NCBI RefSeq assembly: GCF_014207185.1
Contig: NZ_JACHCP010000009.1
Location: 1-64,000 of the forward strand
Direction: 5' to 3'
DNA: 64,000 nucleotides
Source of the DNA: Rhodanobacter sp. A1T4
GTDB lineage: Bacteria > Pseudomonadota > Gammaproteobacteria > Xanthomonadales > Rhodanobacteraceae
Position numbers and translations under genes: made by a program. Each line of letters begins with the position of its first letter. The stretch's first letter is position 1. The notes below the pieces were generated by a model. The model made no database searches and had not been told where the DNA came from. It saw only the letters and a program-made list of their open reading frames with translations. This document shows, in pieces, positions 1-5,932 of this stretch.

Positions 1-95
1 GTTCGGCTGCTGTGCTCAACTATGCAGGCAAACAGTTCACCCATCAGGTGTCGCCAAGTGATTACGCGTTTCTCGTCTGCGCTGACAACCCCTAA
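1..95 (+). CDS. 3' end of a cassette-encoded protein (cut by window edge)
   Basis: An open frame runs in from the left edge and stops at the TAA inside the first half-site of the first attC. Only about 30 C-terminal residues are visible, ending in FLVCADNP. The position directly before an attC and the use of its R'' TAA as stop codon match other cassette genes in this array. Function cannot be judged from this fragment. Confidence 0.6.
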   Translation, partial: SAAVLNYAGKQFTHQVSPSDYAFLVCADNP

Positions 96-146
96 CCACT
101 CATTCGAGCCGAACGGCTACGCCGCCGCTCAATTCAAGCGTTAGGC
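90..146 (+). other. attC site 1
   Basis: It begins with CCCTAAC and ends with GTTAGGC, with a central imperfect inverted repeat of the GGACGGC...GCCGCC type. It closes the cassette whose 3' end enters from the left edge. Confidence 0.85.
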
Positions 147-152
147 CTTTCA

Positions 153-470
153 TTGAGCATCGCAGAATTTCAATTCAAGTCAGCCTCGTCAAGCGAGCTC
201 GTGCTGCCGCTTTCCGAGGCTCTCGAAGCGTTGCAACTTATGGCGCAATCGGGCGTCTCTGTTTTGGGCTGGGATGGTTGGCTCCGCTACCCCGATGGTA
301 AGCTCGGCCATTCACAGCAACACCAAGGCACCGCGTCAGCTCCACAGCTAAGTCAGGCCGAGTTATATGCTTGGTTCCGCAGCACCATGCAAGACTCGCA
401 AGTTGAGCATCACCACAATCCGGAGGTATCTGGCAGTGAGCTTCTTTTTTGCATCACGTACCAGGCCTAA
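153..470 (+). CDS. Integron cassette protein, unknown function (105 aa)
   Basis: This is the first complete cassette. The frame opens with TTG 6 bp after attC1 and ends on the TAA of the R'' site of attC2, so the whole cassette is coding. The product is a small soluble protein with a Trp-rich centre (GWDGWLRYPDG) and no signal peptide or membrane segment. I do not recognise the family. The TTG start is the only one that uses nearly the full cassette; a later start is possible. Confidence 0.6.
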   Translation: MSIAEFQFKSASSSELVLPLSEALEALQLMAQSGVSVLGWDGWLRYPDGKLGHSQQHQGTASAPQLSQAELYAWFRSTMQDSQVEHHHNPEVSGSELLFCITYQA

Positions 471-514
471 CAACTCGTTCAAGGCTTTGCCGCGGCTCAA
501 TTCTAGCGTTAGGC
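465..514 (+). other. attC site 2 (short, diverged)
   Basis: GCCTAAC...GTTAGGC. At 50 bp it is about 7 bp shorter than its neighbours, and the central arm reads GGCTTTGCCGCGG instead of GGCGGACGGC. It is therefore the most divergent site of the array. Confidence 0.85.
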
Positions 515-519
515 ACCAA

Positions 520-876
520 ATGACAGATTCGGACGAAACCACCATTTTGTATCGCCCTGTTGGGCCGGAGGAGCTCGAACTTCTGCGAGCTTCCGGCTTC
601 ACTCGCTGGCCACCCAGGCTTCCCGGGCAACCTATTTTCTATCCAGTCACTAACGAGCAGTACGCTGCTGAGATTGCGGAGAAATGGAACGTCAAAGACA
701 GTGGGTACGGTGCGGTCACACGTTTCTCGGTCCGCTCATCATTTATGTCCAACTACCCCATTCAAAAGGTCGGCGGGGCTCTTCATACAGAGTGGTGGGT
801 TCCAGCCGGCGAGCTTGAGGCTCTCAATGACAACATTGTTGGCAAGATTGAGGTGCTGCGTGAGTTTGGTGCCTAA
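520..876 (+). CDS. Small conserved cassette protein of the family usually labelled ADP-ribosylation/crystallin J1
   Basis: A 118-residue protein begins with ATG 6 bp after attC2 and ends on the TAA of attC3 R''. The sequence has the recognisable layout of small bacterial proteins labelled ADP-ribosylation/crystallin J1: LYRPVGPEEL near the N-terminus, PPRLPGQPIFYPV, a V.RF.V segment, a WWVPAGELE motif and NDNIVGKIEV near the end. The label comes from databases and is not proof of ADP-ribosyl hydrolase chemistry, since the protein is far shorter than true ADP-ribosylglycohydrolases. It has no signal peptide, so it is probably cytosolic. The frame is open further upstream through attC2, but the ATG inside the cassette is the natural start. 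Confidence 0.75.
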   Translation: MTDSDETTILYRPVGPEELELLRASGFTRWPPRLPGQPIFYPVTNEQYAAEIAEKWNVKDSGYGAVTRFSVRSSFMSNYPIQKVGGALHTEWWVPAGELEALNDNIVGKIEVLREFGA

Positions 877-927
877 CATTTCGTTCAAGGCGGACGGCTT
901 CGCCGCCGCTTAACTCCAGCGTTAGAC
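871..927 (+). other. attC site 3
   Basis: GCCTAAC at the left and a variant GTTAGAC at the right, with central GGACGGCTTCGCCGCC. The variant right core belongs to the next cassette, whose own attC begins with the matching GTCTAAC. Confidence 0.9.
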
Positions 928-943
928 AACTATGGGAGGTGTC

Positions 944-1348
944 ATGCGGACATGGATTGCAATCGTTCTCGTTGCATTGCCTTCCGGGCTTTGCATTGCA
1001 CAAAGTGCTCCCGGCACAACCAATCTCGGGTGCCATGGCACGTACAGCAACTATGCGTCGGCCGACATACGAGAAACCCCTGTAAGCGGCATATATATTC
1101 AAGTCTCAAACGATAGTGTCAAAGTTCAGGGGGCGGCAGGTCTTGACGCAACCTACACCGTCATCAATCGGCAAGACAATGGCGTCGGTTTCCAACTGGA
1201 CTCAAACAAAGCATTTAGCGGCTTTCTCAACCGCTTCAGTGGTCAACTTTCGCTCATGGAGAGAGCCGGCGCGGTCAACGCCGATGGCAGTTTTCAAACT
1301 CGCCAAATCCTCAATGCGGTCTGCACCAAAGCTAGCGCCATCTTTTAG
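944..1348 (+). CDS. Secreted cassette protein, unknown function (134 aa)
   Basis: The protein starts MRTWIAIVLVALPSGLCIAQ, a classical signal peptide with likely cleavage after IAQ, so it is predicted to be exported to the periplasm. The rest is a small beta-rich domain with two cysteines, one near the mature N-terminus (GCHGTY) and one near the C-terminus (NAVCTK), which could form a disulphide. An in-frame ATG lies 12 bp upstream, but a GGGAGGT ribosome site sits between the two ATGs and is correctly placed for position 944. The cassette is bounded by matching GTTAGAC/GTCTAAC cores. I do not recognise the family. Confidence 0.65.
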   Translation: MRTWIAIVLVALPSGLCIAQSAPGTTNLGCHGTYSNYASADIRETPVSGIYIQVSNDSVKVQGAAGLDATYTVINRQDNGVGFQLDSNKAFSGFLNRFSGQLSLMERAGAVNADGSFQTRQILNAVCTKASAIF

Positions 1349-1362
1349 CTCCCGGCGAAGTT

Positions 1363-1419
1363 GTCTAACATCTCGTTCAAGGCGGACGCCTCCGGCACCG
1401 CTTAACTCCAGCGTTAGGC
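1363..1419 (+). other. attC site 4
   Basis: GTCTAAC at the left, complementary to the GTTAGAC that opens the same cassette at 921-927, and GTTAGGC at the right. The central arm is GGACGCCTCCGGCACC. Confidence 0.9.
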
Positions 1420-1616
1420 GTTTGCTCTGCCAGTGTTTCGTTTCGTGTGTTTCGCCCAGCTTCGCGCTTGCTTGTTGTCTCTCGCCGCAGCAGCACTTAG
1501 CGCGGCGTTACGGCAAGTCATGCGCCTGCAGAGCTGGTAGTTTGTAAGGGGCGGTTGCTCGGCGTTCTTCGCTTGTCCTGGCCAACGGCCTCGCCCAACC
1601 GAACCTCGCCGCAATC
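1420..1616. other. Cassette without a forward ORF
   Basis: The 197 bp between attC4 and attC5 hold no plausible plus-strand gene. A 66-codon frame runs on the minus strand from 1614 to a stop that is the TTA (TAA in reverse) of the attC4 right core. Its predicted product is Arg/Ala/Lys-rich (QARSWAKHTKRNTG near the end) and has no recognisable domain. The cassette may be non-coding, may carry a promoter or small RNA, or may encode this antisense-oriented peptide. I cannot separate these options by eye. Confidence 0.5.
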
Positions 1617-1672
1617 GTCTAACATCTCATTCAAGCGGACGGCTGCGCCGCCGCTTAACTCCAGCGTTAGGC
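1617..1672 (+). other. attC site 5
   Basis: GTCTAAC...GTTAGGC, central GGACGGCTGCGCCGCC, 56 bp. It closes the cassette without a forward ORF. Confidence 0.9.
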
Positions 1673-1736
1673 CCCCCAACAGCGCATGTACCGCCACAAT
1701 CGGCGAAAACCCTTGACCAATTTCACTCCAAACACC

Positions 1737-1964
1737 ATGAAACGAGTTTCCACCCTTGTCGCAAAAACCATTTGCATATTGTTGGCTGGCCTCGCGCTTG
1801 AAGGTTGCTTGCAGCTGGGCTTCAACAAAAACGGTCTCTATTGCACTGAAGGTCCGACTGATGTGGCACCTTCTTGCTTTGGACACTCTGCACCAAAATC
1901 GCCAGCCAGCGCTTCGCCAGCAACGGCAACCTCACTCAAAAAAGTTGATCCGAGTGAGCCCTAA
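1737..1964 (+). CDS. Putative cassette lipoprotein, unknown function (75 aa)
   Basis: From the ATG at 1737 the protein reads MKRVSTLVAKTICILLAGLALEGC, a signal peptide ending in a lipobox-like LEGC with an atypical Glu at -2. The mature part is short, with two further cysteines and a low-complexity Ser/Ala/Pro tail. The stop is the TAA of attC6 R''. An upstream in-frame ATG at 1686 would bury the hydrophobic segment, so the later start is preferred. It is probably attached to a membrane through lipid; no function is recognisable. Confidence 0.55.
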   Translation: MKRVSTLVAKTICILLAGLALEGCLQLGFNKNGLYCTEGPTDVAPSCFGHSAPKSPASASPATATSLKKVDPSEP

Positions 1965-2015
1965 CCACTCGTTCGAGGCGGACGGCTACGCCGCCGCTCA
2001 ACTCCAGCGTTATGC
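1959..2015 (+). other. attC site 6
   Basis: CCCTAAC at the left and the variant GTTATGC at the right. The right core matches GCATAAC at the start of attC7, which marks the two ends of one cassette. Confidence 0.9.
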
Positions 2016-2033
2016 CTCAAAGGGAGCATCCTC

Positions 2034-2438
2034 GTGAGTTGGGACATAAGCATTCAACGCTTCAGTCGCGTCTACACTTCGATTCAGCAAATTCCCAACG
2101 ATGAGCGTTGTGTCCCTCTTGGCTCGCAAGTCGAGGTGCGAGCTGCCATTTCTGAGGTTTTTCACGGCACCGATTGGAGCGATCCGACTTGGGGCAACTA
2201 CGATTTCCCAGGCGGCTCGATCGAATTCAACATGGGCAAGCCCGAGTCAAACAACGGCTTCATGCTCCACGTCCGCGCATCGGAACAAGTCGTCCCTCTT
2301 ATCGTTACTCTGTGTATTCAAAACGGCTGGCAAGCTTTGGACTGTGGCAGCGGTGAGTTTCTCGAGCAGTCCAATGAGCCGGCATCTGGTCAAGCTGCTT
2401 GGCTCGCTTATCGCAATCAAGTTCTCGGCAAGGCATAA
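2034..2438 (+). CDS. Conserved small cassette protein, unknown function (134 aa)
   Basis: The gene starts with GTG, preceded by an AAGGGAG ribosome site, and ends on the TAA of attC7 R''. The product is soluble and acidic, beginning MSWDISIQRFS and carrying a TDWSDPTWGNYD block, a SIEFNMGK strand and a C-terminal half with W.ALDC and FLEQS motifs. The pattern looks like a compact conserved domain rather than random coding, but I cannot assign a named family. Its GTTATGC/GCATAAC core pair differs from most of the array, pointing to separate acquisition. Confidence 0.6.
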   Translation: MSWDISIQRFSRVYTSIQQIPNDERCVPLGSQVEVRAAISEVFHGTDWSDPTWGNYDFPGGSIEFNMGKPESNNGFMLHVRASEQVVPLIVTLCIQNGWQALDCGSGEFLEQSNEPASGQAAWLAYRNQVLGKA

Positions 2439-2489
2439 CAACTCGTTCAAGGCGGACGGCTTCGCCGCCGCTTAACTCCAGCGTTAGGC
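2433..2489 (+). other. attC site 7
   Basis: GCATAAC...GTTAGGC with central GGACGGCTTCGCCGCC. The left core is the complement of the GTTATGC that opens the same cassette at 2009-2015. Confidence 0.9.
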
Positions 2490-2492
2490 CTC

Positions 2493-2915
2493 ATGAAGAC
2501 ACTCTTCCAAAAAGTAGCGTTGCTTGCGACCTTCATCATTTCCACCTCTGCATCTGCCACACAGGCGGAAGTTCGCTTCATAAAGTTTCCAAGCCGCGAT
2601 GTCGAGCGGTTAGGGCAGATCGATAAATTGACCATAACGGTAGCGTGCAGTCGGATATCGCAGCTTGCGAACATTCCGGAGCTGTATAACATCCGTATGG
2701 GTTACGAAATGCCCACCCGAAATGATTTCGAGGCAACACCAAGACTGGGCGCTGCAGCAGTTGACTTGCGGCGATGGAACAACGTCATAGGGATCTTAAT
2801 TCCGGCCGACGCAGATAGTGCGTCGTGCTTTTCTGTGACAGTTACAGCGGTAGGACGTGGCACAGGGGTTTCTGATGTCACACAGAAATGGACCGGCCAT
2901 GAGCTTGGCTTCTAA
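2493..2915 (+). CDS. Secreted cassette protein, unknown function (140 aa)
   Basis: The N-terminus MKTLFQKVALLATFIISTSASATQA is a clear Sec signal peptide with likely cleavage after SASA or TQA. The mature domain of about 115 residues has two cysteines, ACSR and SCFS, and alternates hydrophobic beta strands, as in small periplasmic domains. The ATG lies 3 bp after attC7, so the ribosome site must lie within the attC right arm or be weak. The stop is 5 bp before attC8. I do not recognise the family. Confidence 0.6.
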   Translation: MKTLFQKVALLATFIISTSASATQAEVRFIKFPSRDVERLGQIDKLTITVACSRISQLANIPELYNIRMGYEMPTRNDFEATPRLGAAAVDLRRWNNVIGILIPADADSASCFSVTVTAVGRGTGVSDVTQKWTGHELGF

Positions 2916-2920
2916 AGTTT

Positions 2921-2977
2921 GCCTAACAGTTCGTTCAAGGCGGACGGCTACGCCGCCGCTTAACTCCAGCGTTAGGC
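2921..2977 (+). other. attC site 8
   Basis: GCCTAAC...GTTAGGC with central GGACGGCTACGCCGCC, 57 bp, matching the array consensus. Confidence 0.9.
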
Positions 2978-2982
2978 CTTCA

Positions 2983-3216
2983 ATGCTCATACCTTTCTGG
3001 TTCAACGTGACTAAGGGTCTCGGCTTCGGCGTCACGGCTTCCACCGAGGCGGAAGCTGAGCAGCTACTGCGTCAATTTGGTTATCCGCCAAAAGAAGTTC
3101 AATTCACCAATGTCGTGCAAAATATTACCTTTGCAGAGCTAGACCAAAAGCATGTCGTTCCAAATTCCGGGCCTATGGTTGTTCGGGGTGTTTGGTATCC
3201 TCGGCACAATGTGTAG
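2983..3216 (+). CDS. Small cassette protein, unknown function (77 aa)
   Basis: The ATG 5 bp after attC8 opens a 77-codon frame that stops 6 bp before attC9. The protein is a small mixed alpha/beta chain with a helix-like TEAEAEQLLRQFG segment and an FTNVVQNITFAELDQ segment. It has no signal peptide. The frame is open further upstream through attC8, but that is attC sequence rather than gene. I do not recognise a family. Confidence 0.55.
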   Translation: MLIPFWFNVTKGLGFGVTASTEAEAEQLLRQFGYPPKEVQFTNVVQNITFAELDQKHVVPNSGPMVVRGVWYPRHNV

Positions 3217-3222
3217 CGTCCG

Positions 3223-3279
3223 GCCTAACCACTCGTTCAAGGTGGACAGCTACGCCGCCGCTCAACTCCAGCGTTAGGC
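3223..3279 (+). other. attC site 9
   Basis: GCCTAAC...GTTAGGC. The central arm is GGTGGACAGCTACGCCGCC, with small changes that weaken the inner stem compared with its neighbours. Confidence 0.9.
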
Positions 3280-3287
3280 CAAAAGAA

Positions 3288-3518
3288 GTGAAGTCATCTC
3301 TCACACGGCAGGAACGTCGGCATGCTCGCTTCGTCGAGGAGAGGCGGTCGCGCGCTGAGCAAAAGCGAAGCGCTATCGCATCTCAAAAGTTAGACCGGGC
3401 AAGTAAGCGCAGAGATCGAGTCAATCCAAGCGCTAGCGCCCCATCGTTACGCGAGGCCCTTTATCGTATATTTGGTGGGCCACTGGTTCGCCTCTACTAT
3501 GTGTTCAAGCGGCTCTAG
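3288..3518 (+). CDS. Small highly basic cassette protein (76 aa)
   Basis: A GTG start behind an AAAAGAAG purine run opens a 76-codon frame. The first 50 residues are packed with Arg and Lys (RQERRHARF, RSRAEQKRS, RASKRRDR), which suggests nucleic-acid or membrane-surface binding. The C-terminal 25 residues (LREALYRIFGG then LVRLYYVF) could form an amphipathic or membrane-touching helix. The gene ends 17 bp before attC10. No family is recognised, and the composition alone does not prove a DNA-binding role. Confidence 0.5.
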   Translation: MKSSLTRQERRHARFVEERRSRAEQKRSAIASQKLDRASKRRDRVNPSASAPSLREALYRIFGGPLVRLYYVFKRL

Positions 3519-3535
3519 GGCGCTGGCATGCTTGG

Positions 3536-3593
3536 GCCTAACAACTCGTTCAAGGCGGACGGGCTACGCCGCCGCTTAACTCCAGCGTTAGGC
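3536..3593 (+). other. attC site 10
   Basis: GCCTAAC...GTTAGGC, central GGACGGGCTACGCCGCC with one extra G, giving 58 bp. Confidence 0.9.
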
Positions 3594-3597
3594 ATCT

Positions 3598-4149
3598 ATG
3601 GCACAGACAACTACCATCCCGTTCAGCAAAACGAAAATTCTTCTGTTTTCATTAGCTGCCGCTGGTTTCGTAGCGCTGGGTTGCTTTCTGATACGAAAGC
3701 CTGACGGCTCTTTGCTGGAGCGTGGTTTCGGCGTTGTCAGCATAGTCTTCTTTGGCCTAGCTCTCCTCTTTGCTCTACGCAAGCTATTTGACTTCTCTCC
3801 GGGCCTCGTCCTAGATACCCGCGGATTGACTGACAACTCGAGCATATTTCCACGTGGCTTTATTCCTTGGTCAGACATATCCGGTCTGAGCGAGCAACAG
3901 ATCAAAAACCAGCGTCTTCTTTATGTGCTACTCAAGAACCCAGACAAATATATTGCATCACGTGGACCAATAATGCGGGCCGCACTGAAAGCGATGGAAA
4001 ACCGCATCCCTAGTCCGGTTGCCATTTCGTCAAACACTTTAGCCATTGGATTCGACGACATGGTCCAACTTATCAACAAGTATCTGTTGGCACAGTCGCT
4101 AGATGCGCCTAACAACTCATTCAAGGCGGACGCCTCCGGCGCCGCTTAA
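3598..4149 (+). CDS. STM3941-like membrane protein with an attC-encoded C-terminus (183 aa)
   Basis: The protein has an N-terminal pair of membrane segments (about residues 13-31 and 44-61) followed by a cytoplasmic domain with DTRGLTDNSS and FIPWSDISGL, the arrangement of the STM3941 family, whose function is unknown. The frame does not stop before attC11 but reads through it, adding APNNSFKADASGAA from the recombination site, and stops on a TAA inside the attC. This is the largest cassette of the array. The start ATG lies 4 bp after attC10. The family call rests on overall layout and is moderately certain. Confidence 0.7.
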   Translation: MAQTTTIPFSKTKILLFSLAAAGFVALGCFLIRKPDGSLLERGFGVVSIVFFGLALLFALRKLFDFSPGLVLDTRGLTDNSSIFPRGFIPWSDISGLSEQQIKNQRLLYVLLKNPDKYIASRGPIMRAALKAMENRIPSPVAISSNTLAIGFDDMVQLINKYLLAQSLDAPNNSFKADASGAA

Positions 4150-4163
4150 TTCAAGCGTTAGGC
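4107..4163 (+). other. attC site 11 (partly coding)
   Basis: GCCTAAC...GTTAGGC with central GGACGCCTCCGGCGCC. Its left 43 bp are translated as the tail of the upstream STM3941-like protein. Confidence 0.9.
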
Positions 4164-4170
4164 CTTCCAG

Positions 4171-4401
4171 ATGACTGACGATGTAGACCGATACATTGCT
4201 GGAGTTGACTTTTCTCGGCTCCCGGCACAAGCCGAGCCGGTGTTAGTTGCGCTTGGCCAGTTCAATGAGGGCAAGCCAGTTACGGCAACTTGTCCAACCT
4301 GTGGCCACGCAATCTCAGTTGAAGCTAGAGGCAACCCAACCTCTGCATGGCTACACTCATGCCCATGTGGGCTGTGCAGTGGTTCGTTCCGAGGCCTTTA
4401 G
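4171..4401 (+). CDS. Small cassette protein with a possible zinc ribbon (76 aa)
   Basis: The C-terminal half contains CPTCGH and, about 20 residues later, CPCGLC, so two CxxC-like pairs that could bind one zinc ion. The N-terminal half is acidic (MTDDVDRYIAGVDF). The protein has no signal or membrane segment. Zinc-ribbon pairs of this type occur in small nucleic-acid-binding or protein-binding modules, so a regulatory or partner-binding role is an inference only. ATG is 7 bp after attC11. Confidence 0.55.
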   Translation: MTDDVDRYIAGVDFSRLPAQAEPVLVALGQFNEGKPVTATCPTCGHAISVEARGNPTSAWLHSCPCGLCSGSFRGL

Positions 4402-4405
4402 GGCG

Positions 4406-4459
4406 TGCCAACTCGTTCAAGGCGGACGGCTTCGCCGCCGCTTAACTCAAGCGTTAGGC
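4406..4459 (+). other. attC site 12
   Basis: The left core is degenerate (TGCCAAC instead of GCCTAAC); the right core is GTTAGGC. The left change may reduce the activity of this site. Confidence 0.8.
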
Positions 4460-4479
4460 GAGCTCGACAAGGGGACTTT

Positions 4480-4818
4480 GTGAACATTGAGGAGCAACGC
4501 GAAAGTATTGAGTCAGGCTATGCATCTATGCGTTTCTTTATTTGGTGCATTGCGCTGGCCTCCATGCTCTTCGCTCAATCTCGTGCGCATTCGTTGGGTA
4601 GACTCGGCACGGACTGGATTTTCGTTGGGGCGGGCGCCCTAATCATGCTTGCAACTTTATTGGATATTCGCAGCGGTGCATCTACGCTCGTCCTGTCCAA
4701 ATTCAAACGTTCAGATGATTCGACAGGTTTCTGGACGTCAGTTGCAATCAGTGGACTATTAGGGGCAGTACTAGTTTTTGGTGCACTCGGTGATTTGTGT
4801 GGCCTATGGCAATTTTGA
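4480..4818 (+). CDS. Cassette membrane protein, unknown function (112 aa)
   Basis: GTG start behind a GGGG purine run, 20 bp after attC12. The product has three hydrophobic segments: about residues 17-32 (FFIWCIALASMLFA), 45-61 (DWIFVGAGALIMLATLL) and 86-104 (WTSVAISGLLGAVLVFGAL). It is therefore predicted to lie in the inner membrane with a short cytoplasmic N-terminus rich in Glu. No family is recognised. The frame is open through attC12, but starting there would encode attC sequence. Confidence 0.55.
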   Translation: MNIEEQRESIESGYASMRFFIWCIALASMLFAQSRAHSLGRLGTDWIFVGAGALIMLATLLDIRSGASTLVLSKFKRSDDSTGFWTSVAISGLLGAVLVFGALGDLCGLWQF

Positions 4819-4824
4819 CATTTC

Positions 4825-4881
4825 GCCTAACAAATCGTTCAAGGCAGACGGCTTCGCCGCCGCTTAACTCCAGCGTTAGAG
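4825..4881 (+). other. attC site 13
   Basis: GCCTAAC at the left and the variant GTTAGAG at the right. The right core pairs with CTCTAAC of attC14, the far end of the same cassette. Confidence 0.9.
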
Positions 4882-4886
4882 CGCAT

Positions 4887-5267
4887 ATGCAACTTCCTGA
4901 ATATCTTGCGGGATTCATTCAAGGCTTGAGCGCAGCCTCAAACTCGGTTTGGGATCAAGGTGGCCTCCAGCTAGAGATCGTCGCTGCCGACTCGGCAATC
5001 ACATGGCAGCCGCAAGCTCAGTCGACACAAGAGTTGCTTCTTGAGTTCTTTGCATGTGTCTGCGGTAACCGCTTAGGCGAGAGGACACACGAAACTTTGC
5101 CTTGCCTCAAGAGCTTCACGTCAGCACTGGGGCAAGCGTTTCCCGGTGGTTCATGCCATCTGCAGGTTGAGGAGCTTGAGGGCTCCTGGGCTTACAGGCT
5201 TCACTGCTTTGTCAAGCTGCCAGCTTGCTCTTCTTTATATTTCCGTCTTGGCTGGAGTGTCGACTGA
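4887..5267 (+). CDS. Cassette protein, unknown function (126 aa)
   Basis: ATG lies 5 bp after attC13 and the stop 4 bp before attC14. The soluble protein has a helical N-terminus (YLAGFIQGLSAASNSVW), several cysteines (FACVCGN, LPCLKS, SCHLQ, HCF, PACS) and a C-terminal SSLYFRLGWSVD strand. It has no signal peptide. The cysteines are not in a recognisable metal-binding pattern. I do not recognise a family. It sits in a cassette bounded by the distinctive GTTAGAG/CTCTAAC cores. Confidence 0.55.
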   Translation: MQLPEYLAGFIQGLSAASNSVWDQGGLQLEIVAADSAITWQPQAQSTQELLLEFFACVCGNRLGERTHETLPCLKSFTSALGQAFPGGSCHLQVEELEGSWAYRLHCFVKLPACSSLYFRLGWSVD

Positions 5268-5271
5268 TGCG

Positions 5272-5328
5272 CTCTAACATCTCGTTCAAGGCGGACGGCT
5301 TCGCCGCCGCTTAACTCCAGCGTTAACC
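5272..5328 (+). other. attC site 14, last of the array
   Basis: CTCTAAC at the left and GTTAACC at the right, central GGACGGCTTCGCCGCC. No further attC follows in the window, so this is the distal end of the array as seen here. Confidence 0.9.
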
Positions 5329-5338
5329 AGCAACGAAA

Positions 5339-5770
5339 ATGCAAACGAACACGCCCGTCAGTTTCGATGAACTCCTCGCAGGTCTCGAGTGGGCGAGCGC
5401 TGCAGGTTCCTTCGAAAACGAGGCTTACGTCAACAGGATCAGCGGTAAGGTTTTCTGCTCATCGAGTAGCGCCGATGTAGAAGAGGATCTCCCGGAAGAT
5501 ATCGAAGACAACAAGGTCTACCTGGCACTCCCGAGCAAGGGGGATCTTGGTCTCGGGCGGGAGCTCGCCTTGCACTTTGTCGAGGCCCATTTGCCGGAGT
5601 CCTACGAACTTACCTATGGGTACTTTCAAAGCCGAGGCGCGTATCAACGATTTAAGGCATTGCTCGATCGAAAGGACCGACTTGAAGATTGGTACGCGTT
5701 CGAGCAGACGGCCGTGGAAGAGGCCCTGCGAAGATGGAGTGCGGAGAACGACCTGCAGCTCAAGTCTTAG
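5339..5770 (+). CDS. UPF0158 family protein (143 aa)
   Basis: The sequence shows the UPF0158 pattern: an N-terminal helix, an AYVNRISGKVFC strand pair, an acidic DLPEDIEDNKVYLALPSKGDL block, LGRELALHFVEAHLP, then GAYQRFKALLDRKDRLEDWYAFE and a C-terminal helix. Its biochemical role is unknown. The ATG is 10 bp after attC14, the spacing of cassette genes, yet no attC follows the stop. It is either the last cassette with its own attC lost or the first host gene beyond the array. UPF0158 membership is fairly certain; cassette status is not. Confidence 0.8.
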   Translation: MQTNTPVSFDELLAGLEWASAAGSFENEAYVNRISGKVFCSSSSADVEEDLPEDIEDNKVYLALPSKGDLGLGRELALHFVEAHLPESYELTYGYFQSRGAYQRFKALLDRKDRLEDWYAFEQTAVEEALRRWSAENDLQLKS

Positions 5771-5793
5771 CCGCGCCAGAACCTTTACGCTCA

Positions 5794-5851
5794 CGGCAAT
5801 GGCTGCTTTGCGGCATGCATTTGTATCTGGCGACCCGCCGGTGTTGGCCGG
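5794..5851 (+). repeat. Diverged direct repeat, copy A
   Basis: This stretch shares the blocks GCAATGGC, TTTGCGGC, GCATTTG and TGTTGGCCG in the same order and orientation with 8522-8578, at roughly three quarters identity by eye. The two copies bracket the hydrolase-regulator block. Confidence 0.5.
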
Positions 5852-5932
5852 ATAGCGACCGCTCCCCGTGTCGCTGTCCGAGGCATTTTTGTCGTCGCGA
5901 GCATCCGCTTTGGGGCAGTTTTCTAAGAAGTG

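Follow-up and report, generated by a model that had tools for sequence, protein, structure and literature searches.

A cassette array of attC sites, most probably without its own integrase, at a contig end of Rhodanobacter sp. A1T4

The stretch of DNA analyzed here (64,000 nucleotides, hereafter the window) corresponds to C9:1-64000 of the Rhodanobacter sp. A1T4 assembly, its first base being base 1 of contig C9. Between positions 90 and 5328, sequence reading and a repeat search delineated 14 attC sites, the recombination sites of integrons, all on the + strand and with 13 cassettes in between (Table 1). Overall, we regard it as likely that these repeats are attC sites forming a cassette array of the xanthomonad chromosomal-integron type, most probably a cluster of attC sites lacking an integron integrase (CALIN). 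In the following, C, L and G numbers denote contigs, loci and genomes, respectively.

The attC sites and cassettes of the window

Twelve of the 14 sites are 56-57 bases long, the remaining two being site 2 (50 bases), which lacks the block around GGCGGAC, and site 10 (58 bases). Once aligned (alignment A1), the sites display a mean column identity of 90%, and a left-half pattern allowing up to three mismatches matched all sites except 2 and 5 (12/14), compared to 0.05 matches expected in the window from dinucleotide shuffles. Individual deviations are found at site 12, where the R'' core is damaged (GCGTGCC instead of GCCTAAC), and at site 14, where the R' end is atypical (GTTAACC). As is characteristic of attC, the window sites combine R'' and R' cores with a bottom strand that can fold and leaves bases extrahelical; the structure expected for attC consists of an R box, an L box with an unpaired base, an upper stem and a short loop, with three unpaired bases on one side. 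This structure pairs 93.1% of the cells, a value dropping to 22-43% when the partners are slid against each other. An Rfam scan of the whole window returned four tRNAs and a glycine riboswitch only.

A covariance model (R1) derived from the window sites identified, at E<=0.1, at least 86 sites in 18 places on 11 contigs of the genome, at least 72 of them outside the window; these figures are lower bounds because 150 of 5477 first-look candidates were scored. Applied to 15 other loci (11 from related species, taken by their IntI, and four taken by a flank gene of the window), the same model detected 63 sites, spread over 8 loci; without exception they are on the opposite strand to intI, and 61 of them lie on its 5' side. 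The seven loci without sites comprise L066, L068 and L069, in which intI lies at most 150 bases from the contig edge on that side, and the four flank-gene loci (L151-L154). Taken together, the cores, the fold, the common orientation and the presence of the same site family beside intI support the integron cassette array proposed in a preliminary description of this DNA, including its fourteen near-identical sites in a single direction and its thirteen complete cassettes.

Twelve of the 13 cassettes contain a forward open reading frame (ORF) taken as the cassette gene, with products of 75-183 amino acids, none of which reaches the curated cut-off of any Pfam family. Five of these twelve products had been predicted to be exported or membrane proteins; four (cassettes 3, 5, 10 and 12) indeed contain a hydrophobic segment above a Kyte-Doolittle value of 1.6 over 19 residues, whereas the product of cassette 7 stays below it (maximum 1.38) and looks signal-peptide-like by eye.

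Table 1. Features in the left part of the window, with bit scores of model R1 for the attC sites
Feature	Position	Strand	Remarks
3' end of incomplete first cassette (c00)	1..89	+	start of window = reverse end of C10
attC site 1	90..146	+	74.9 bits
cassette 1	147..464	+	ORF 153-470; no Pfam family
attC site 2, shortened	465..514	+	53.3 bits
cassette 2	515..870	+	ORF 520-876; no Pfam family
attC site 3	871..927	+	85.3 bits
cassette 3	928..1362	+	ORF 932/944-1348; N-terminal hydrophobic segment
attC site 4	1363..1419	+	79.6 bits
cassette 4, ORF-less	1420..1616	+	non-coding family, about 181-200 bases
attC site 5	1617..1672	+	74.4 bits
cassette 5	1673..1958	+	ORF 1737-1964; N terminus lipoprotein-like by eye
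attC site 6	1959..2015	+	80.5 bits
cassette 6	2016..2432	+	ORF 2034-2438; no Pfam family
attC site 7	2433..2489	+	86.2 bits
cassette 7	2490..2920	+	ORF 2493-2915; second copy on C5 (L012:1625-2055)
attC site 8	2921..2977	+	87.2 bits
cassette 8	2978..3222	+	ORF 2983-3216; no Pfam family
attC site 9	3223..3279	+	78.2 bits
cassette 9	3280..3535	+	ORF 3288-3518; no Pfam family
attC site 10	3536..3593	+	83.9 bits
cassette 10	3594..4106	+	ORF 3598-4149; two hydrophobic segments
attC site 11	4107..4163	+	84.6 bits
cassette 11	4164..4402	+	ORF 4171-4401; no Pfam family
attC site 12, damaged R''	4403..4459	+	77.1 bits
cassette 12	4460..4824	+	ORF 4480-4818; two hydrophobic segments
attC site 13	4825..4881	+	76.4 bits
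cassette 13	4882..5271	+	ORF 4887-5267; no Pfam family
attC site 14, final site, atypical R' end	5272..5328	+	78.4 bits
UPF0158-like gene	5339..5770	+	PF03682, 27.2 bits vs cut-off 21.1; directly after last attC

Integrase genes and the left neighbour of the array

Using the integron integrase model TIGR02249, we found no integrase gene in the window and a single complete intI in the genome (C12:130024-130965, 480 bits vs cut-off 265). In addition, a truncated intI is present on C5 (C5:20477-20794, model positions 2-107, 133.5 bits) with four attC sites on its 5' side, and seven other matches in the genome remained below the cut-off (24-78 bits). The complete intI adjoins a gene, present with its 3' part, for which NCBIfam gives the transcription-repair coupling factor (mfd) as best match; this match stays under its cut-off because the sequenced piece compared is cut; the 5' side of intI is occupied by an attI-like region (by eye) followed by an array. 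Among the best 80 of 214 matches, relatives of this IntI belong largely to the Xanthomonadales, the nearest named one being that of Dyella sp. S184 (96% identity), with Rhodanobacter and Frateuria IntIs at 89-95%; overall, 34 of 41 genomes (own included) contain an IntI match at E<=1e-60. These identities bear out the earlier assignment to a chromosomal integron of xanthomonad type.

Arrays are dispersed in related genomes as well. In six relatives, chosen from those at hand, attC sites at E<=0.001 numbered at least 18 (G041), 29 (G042), 28 (G046), 102 (G016), 104 (G009) and 32 (G001), all counts being lower bounds. G009 contains two arrays adjoining intI plus a further array on its contig C3 without intI at E<=1e-60, and the listed sites of the single-contig genome G046 fall into at least three separate clusters. 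A1T4 additionally carries isolated attC sites that are remote from every array listed (C1:343316, C2:640152, C5:167733 and C5:185033), possible cassettes integrated at secondary sites.

To the left, a probable continuation of the window can be traced through contig ends, which in this assembly overlap by up to 95 bases. The first 95 bases of the window are identical to the reverse end of C10, ending just inside attC, and are shared with C10 only among the contig ends compared (six masked contigs and the right end of C9 left aside). C5 and C16 likewise share their first 95 bases, which run, in array direction, from the last part of an attC site to 68 bases into the next cassette. All four contig ends would be explained by a single duplicated cassette located between C5 and C16 on one side and C9 and C10 on the other, and c00 is probably this duplicated cassette at which the assembly breaks. 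The array of C5 (69-2634) is followed by genes matching MFS transporters and TonB-dependent receptors (below cut-offs), that of C16 (69-5127) by large reading frames, one of them without NCBIfam match. Neither array has an intI alongside; the truncated intI of C5 is separated from the C5 array by about 18 kb, of which about 15 kb are occupied by other genes. The overlaps would hence lead the window to arrays on C5 or C16 that are devoid of intI.

An integrase necessarily situated to the left of the window, as stated previously, is therefore unsupported as it stands and probably wrong, the intact intI being located on C12, whose array most likely leads into C6. The fallback given with it, an array without integrase, appears to be the better reading, since the overlaps reach the intI-less arrays of C5 and C16.

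Several points weigh against the CALIN reading or the evidence behind it. The link to C5 and C16 is based on 95-base contig overlaps, not on reads, and if the gap contained two separate repeats, the left neighbour would be left undecided. Regarding the sites, the three doubly changed base pairs of A1 are no excess over shuffles (reached by 180/500), so that covariation adds little, even with a covariation score equalled by 4/500 shuffles only. Bottom-strand folding energies are modest (z < -2 in 2 of the 11 sites folded, sites 5 and 14), and the two top strands folded score like the bottom strands. Model R1 was built from the 14 window sites, whose own bit scores are consequently no validation, and in one related locus (L071) two of the three sites are located on the 3' side of intI.

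We evaluated three other explanations. First, the window could continue an array whose own intI or attI is hidden in the unassembled gap, given that C9 itself starts at base 1 of the window. Such an intI would need to be part of an unassembled repeat, and TIGR02249 yielded just the C12 gene above its cut-off, besides the C5 fragment and the weak matches mentioned above, rendering this explanation unlikely. Second, the window could represent the distal part of the array headed by the intact, mfd-linked intI of C12, which belongs to the same attC family, has the same orientation relative to intI and runs to the contig end with 10 model-found sites and two sites interrupted by an insertion sequence (IS; by eye). 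C12, however, ends inside a second copy of this IS, and the right end of C6 starts with the same IS tail over 95 bases and carries two sites in array orientation, at 456535 (42.6 bits) and 457189 (28.3 bits, weak). The IS tail and the matching strand of these sites suggest that the C12 array most likely runs on into C6, and the start of the window is, as indicated above, common to C10 only. In favour of the second explanation, the DNA beyond the IS tail on C6 (L055) is not an attC half: another transposase-like frame, recognized by eye, begins directly there and could have removed the IS tip. On balance, a C12 origin is quite improbable. Third, the repeats are highly identical and contain a G+C-rich palindrome, as repetitive extragenic palindromic (REP)-like repeats do, yet their core sequences, unit structure and fixed orientation, together with a duplicated unit bounded by attC, speak for attC, and the placement of such sites beside intI in eight related loci makes another interspersed repeat family hardly conceivable.

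The array of the window is a real and ordinary part, most probably of CALIN type, of a xanthomonad integron system. Movement of cassettes within this system is suggested by cassette 7, which recurs on C5 with 430/431 bases identical, so that the movement was probably recent. Including the bounding attC sites, 541/544 positions match and the match ends at the outer edges of these sites, probably the pattern that recent IntI-mediated copying between arrays would leave.

As described in PMC11023631, the integron integrase recombines the folded bottom strand of attC, allowing cassettes to be excised, moved between arrays and re-inserted in one orientation. In the model we propose, each cassette of the window would constitute a short gene or, once, a non-coding segment with its own attC; the intact IntI of C12 would act on the window array in trans, one duplicated and unassembled cassette would bridge the window to the array of C5 or C16, and most window cassettes would be silent for lack of a nearby Pc promoter. 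The array would thereby exemplify how a genome can carry many arrays away from its single intact integrase, with a cassette copied between them.

An IS element inside attC and a non-coding cassette family

The array of C12 is interrupted twice inside attC by the same IS (L011:5763-7011 and L011:9467-9876). Copies of this element, which is about 1.25 kb long and located in attC at one position and in one orientation, also occur elsewhere in the genus and in some further genera of the order (L155-L224). The IS contains two ORFs, OrfB (NF033516, 272.8 bits vs cut-off 160) and OrfA (PF01527). OrfB matches IS3, IS481, IS6 and IS2 models in NCBIfam and rve, DDE and HTH models in Pfam, with no IS110 model at E<=0.001 in either database; membership in the IS1111-attC group was accordingly rejected. 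IS3-family elements have inverted ends and generate target duplications of 3-5 bases, and inverted ends with a short target duplication were found here. Judged from its sequence, the element in attC is a member of the IS3 family.

A pattern covering the IS end alone was found at 46 ends in 17/45 genomes, and their flanks were compared with attC halves, shuffled sequences serving as control. Thirty-four to 35 of the 46 ends abut an attC half: the first scoring gave 33 of 45 distinct flanks (two having been merged into one that is attC, hence 34/46) and a recheck 35/46, the difference being one borderline, shuffle-dependent end (G022, L186). For comparison, the attC sites listed make up about 0.1% of the genome (86 x 57 bases of 5.08 Mb). 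None of the 46 ends matches the opposite attC half, indicating that the orientation of the IS is constant. Eight copies, from eight genomes, are complete at both ends, although their transposase is not undamaged in all of them; these copies are flanked by both halves of one attC plus a 3-4 base duplication (CGG five times; CCG, CGC and CGGC once each). Considering ten copies, the duplication is present in eight, is missing in L215, and could not be scored in L220, where the left flank is too short. Insertion occurs in the upper stem of attC (GGA^CGG^CTTCG on the top strand), beside an unpaired base (read from A1). Elements retrieved by the transposase alone (12, in 11/45 genomes) gave a similar picture, with attC on both sides in eight and on one side in three.

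Across the order, the IS end pattern occurs in 17/250 genomes. Outside the genus, where flanks were assessed at places with a fetched locus, 12/19 scorable flanks beat all 200 shuffles, often at attC-like sites of different sequence. Among plasmids, the IS gave only short IS3 matches, in two Streptomyces records. Counting against attC specialization are the 11-12 of 46 ends without a clear attC half, one of the 12 transposase-found elements, which has a non-attC right end and whose left end was not found, and the 7/19 failing flanks outside the genus (G155 twice, G248, G096, G283, one G274 end and one G190 end). By eye, three of the failing ends within the genus (G019, G050 L187 and G059) resemble decayed attC, and the failing flanks of G155 (both) and G274 contain the attC right half.

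At L171 (G002 C17), L155 (G046) and L156 (G008), only one end of the IS adjoins attC and the other borders unrelated DNA, suggesting rearrangement through the IS.

In the literature searched, which included few subscription papers and did not extend to ISfinder, we found no report of IS3 elements in attC, the attC-targeting elements named in it being of IS1111 type, and the attC-located IS3 element may be new. Where IS3 elements are mentioned in connection with cassettes, the parts of the sources available to us include IS3 transposases in the proteins associated with cassettes, with a share of 23% in the phyllosphere and no target named (PMC11089894), and report, in V. cholerae, one IS3 copy in a cassette coding sequence and another in the last cassette (PMC11023631).

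The ORF-less cassette 4 of the window contains no convincing ORF and has 27 matches in 13/45 genomes of the genus, with up to six per genome; it is also present in another genus of the family, and in 6/250 genomes of the order in all. We aligned 21 copies bounded by attC from 19 of the 27 loci, omitting L228, L234, L236, L237 and L245 (no attC found on one or both sides), L240 and L248 (coinciding in place with L229 and L242) and L241 (the other G055 copy). Every frame contains stops in 10-18 of the 21 copies, and the variability has no period of three (permutation p 0.71). Rfam gave no match at E<=1 in six loci with cassette 4 copies, including none to the described RNA family sRNA-Xcc1, which we take to be part of that collection. 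The consensus structure from RNAalifold pairs 96.1% of cells compared to 94.2% in shuffles (0/500 as high) and the covariation score exceeds all shuffles, a control that ignores relatedness; double-change pairs were reached by 294/500 shuffles and folding energies are unremarkable. A simple scan of window 1-5900 revealed no sigma-70-like site, cassette promoters not being predictable in silico according to PMC11014356. From these alignments, cassette 4 would represent a multi-copy cassette family without a conserved reading frame, which may be new and for which an RNA, a promoter or a passenger role are candidates. It is a candidate regulatory cassette spreading as a unit.

It is probable that chromosomal integrons of both the genus and further Xanthomonadales families host a dedicated group of IS3 elements that transposes into one position of the attC hairpin in one orientation. 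These elements may split arrays, thereby contributing to integrase-less arrays like that of the window, and would constitute a second attC-specialist, unrelated to IS1111-attC; in parallel, the cassette 4 family spreads with several copies per genome. Provided that these elements are true specialists, one could test how a DDE transposase chooses its target at a site that is folded and recombination-active, and there would be a concrete route by which arrays could break into CALINs.

Right flank and comparison with known systems

The UPF0158-like gene next to the final attC could be either the last cassette, having lost its attC, or the chromosomal boundary. A stretch of about 60 bases (TGCTTTGCGGCATG...), traced to three places only, follows this last gene (5790-5850) and has similar counterparts on C2, immediately behind the final attC of the array there, and on C13 (L013:7525-7585 and L021:16224-16275). 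For the first hydrolase of the right flank, relatives sharing 35-73% identity were found in 5 other genomes out of 31, and six other right-flank genes were not found in the loci examined, so that synteny on this side is unable to place the array.

According to PMC12444791, as far as its text was available, the attC arrays of Xanthomonas chromosomal integrons hold short cassette genes that are mostly unknown, and arrays away from the intI locus exist in about half of the genomes of this genus covered there. The window array, with its short and mostly unknown genes away from intI, is akin to these integrons and CALINs; in contrast to the intI beside ilvD described there for Xanthomonas, the intact intI is located here beside mfd, and at least 86 attC sites are distributed over 18 places in a draft assembly.

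The IS1111-attC group of the IS110 family targets attC (Tetu and Holmes 2008; Post and Hall 2009; as cited in PMC12444791, PMC11089894 and PMC11187229). The element described here is also an IS in attC, but it belongs to the IS3 family, generates 3-4 base duplications and is found in the upper stem.

Gene-less cassettes bounded by attC are reported from Vibrio, most of 29 tested having promoter activity (PMC11014356). Cassette 4 is similarly ORF-less and located between attC sites; unlike the cassettes of that report, it forms a multi-copy family across species. The sRNA-Xcc1/symE cassettes of Xanthomonas are integron cassettes with a non-coding RNA (so described in PMC12444791), compared to which cassette 4, as detailed above, has neither an Rfam match nor a convincing ORF.

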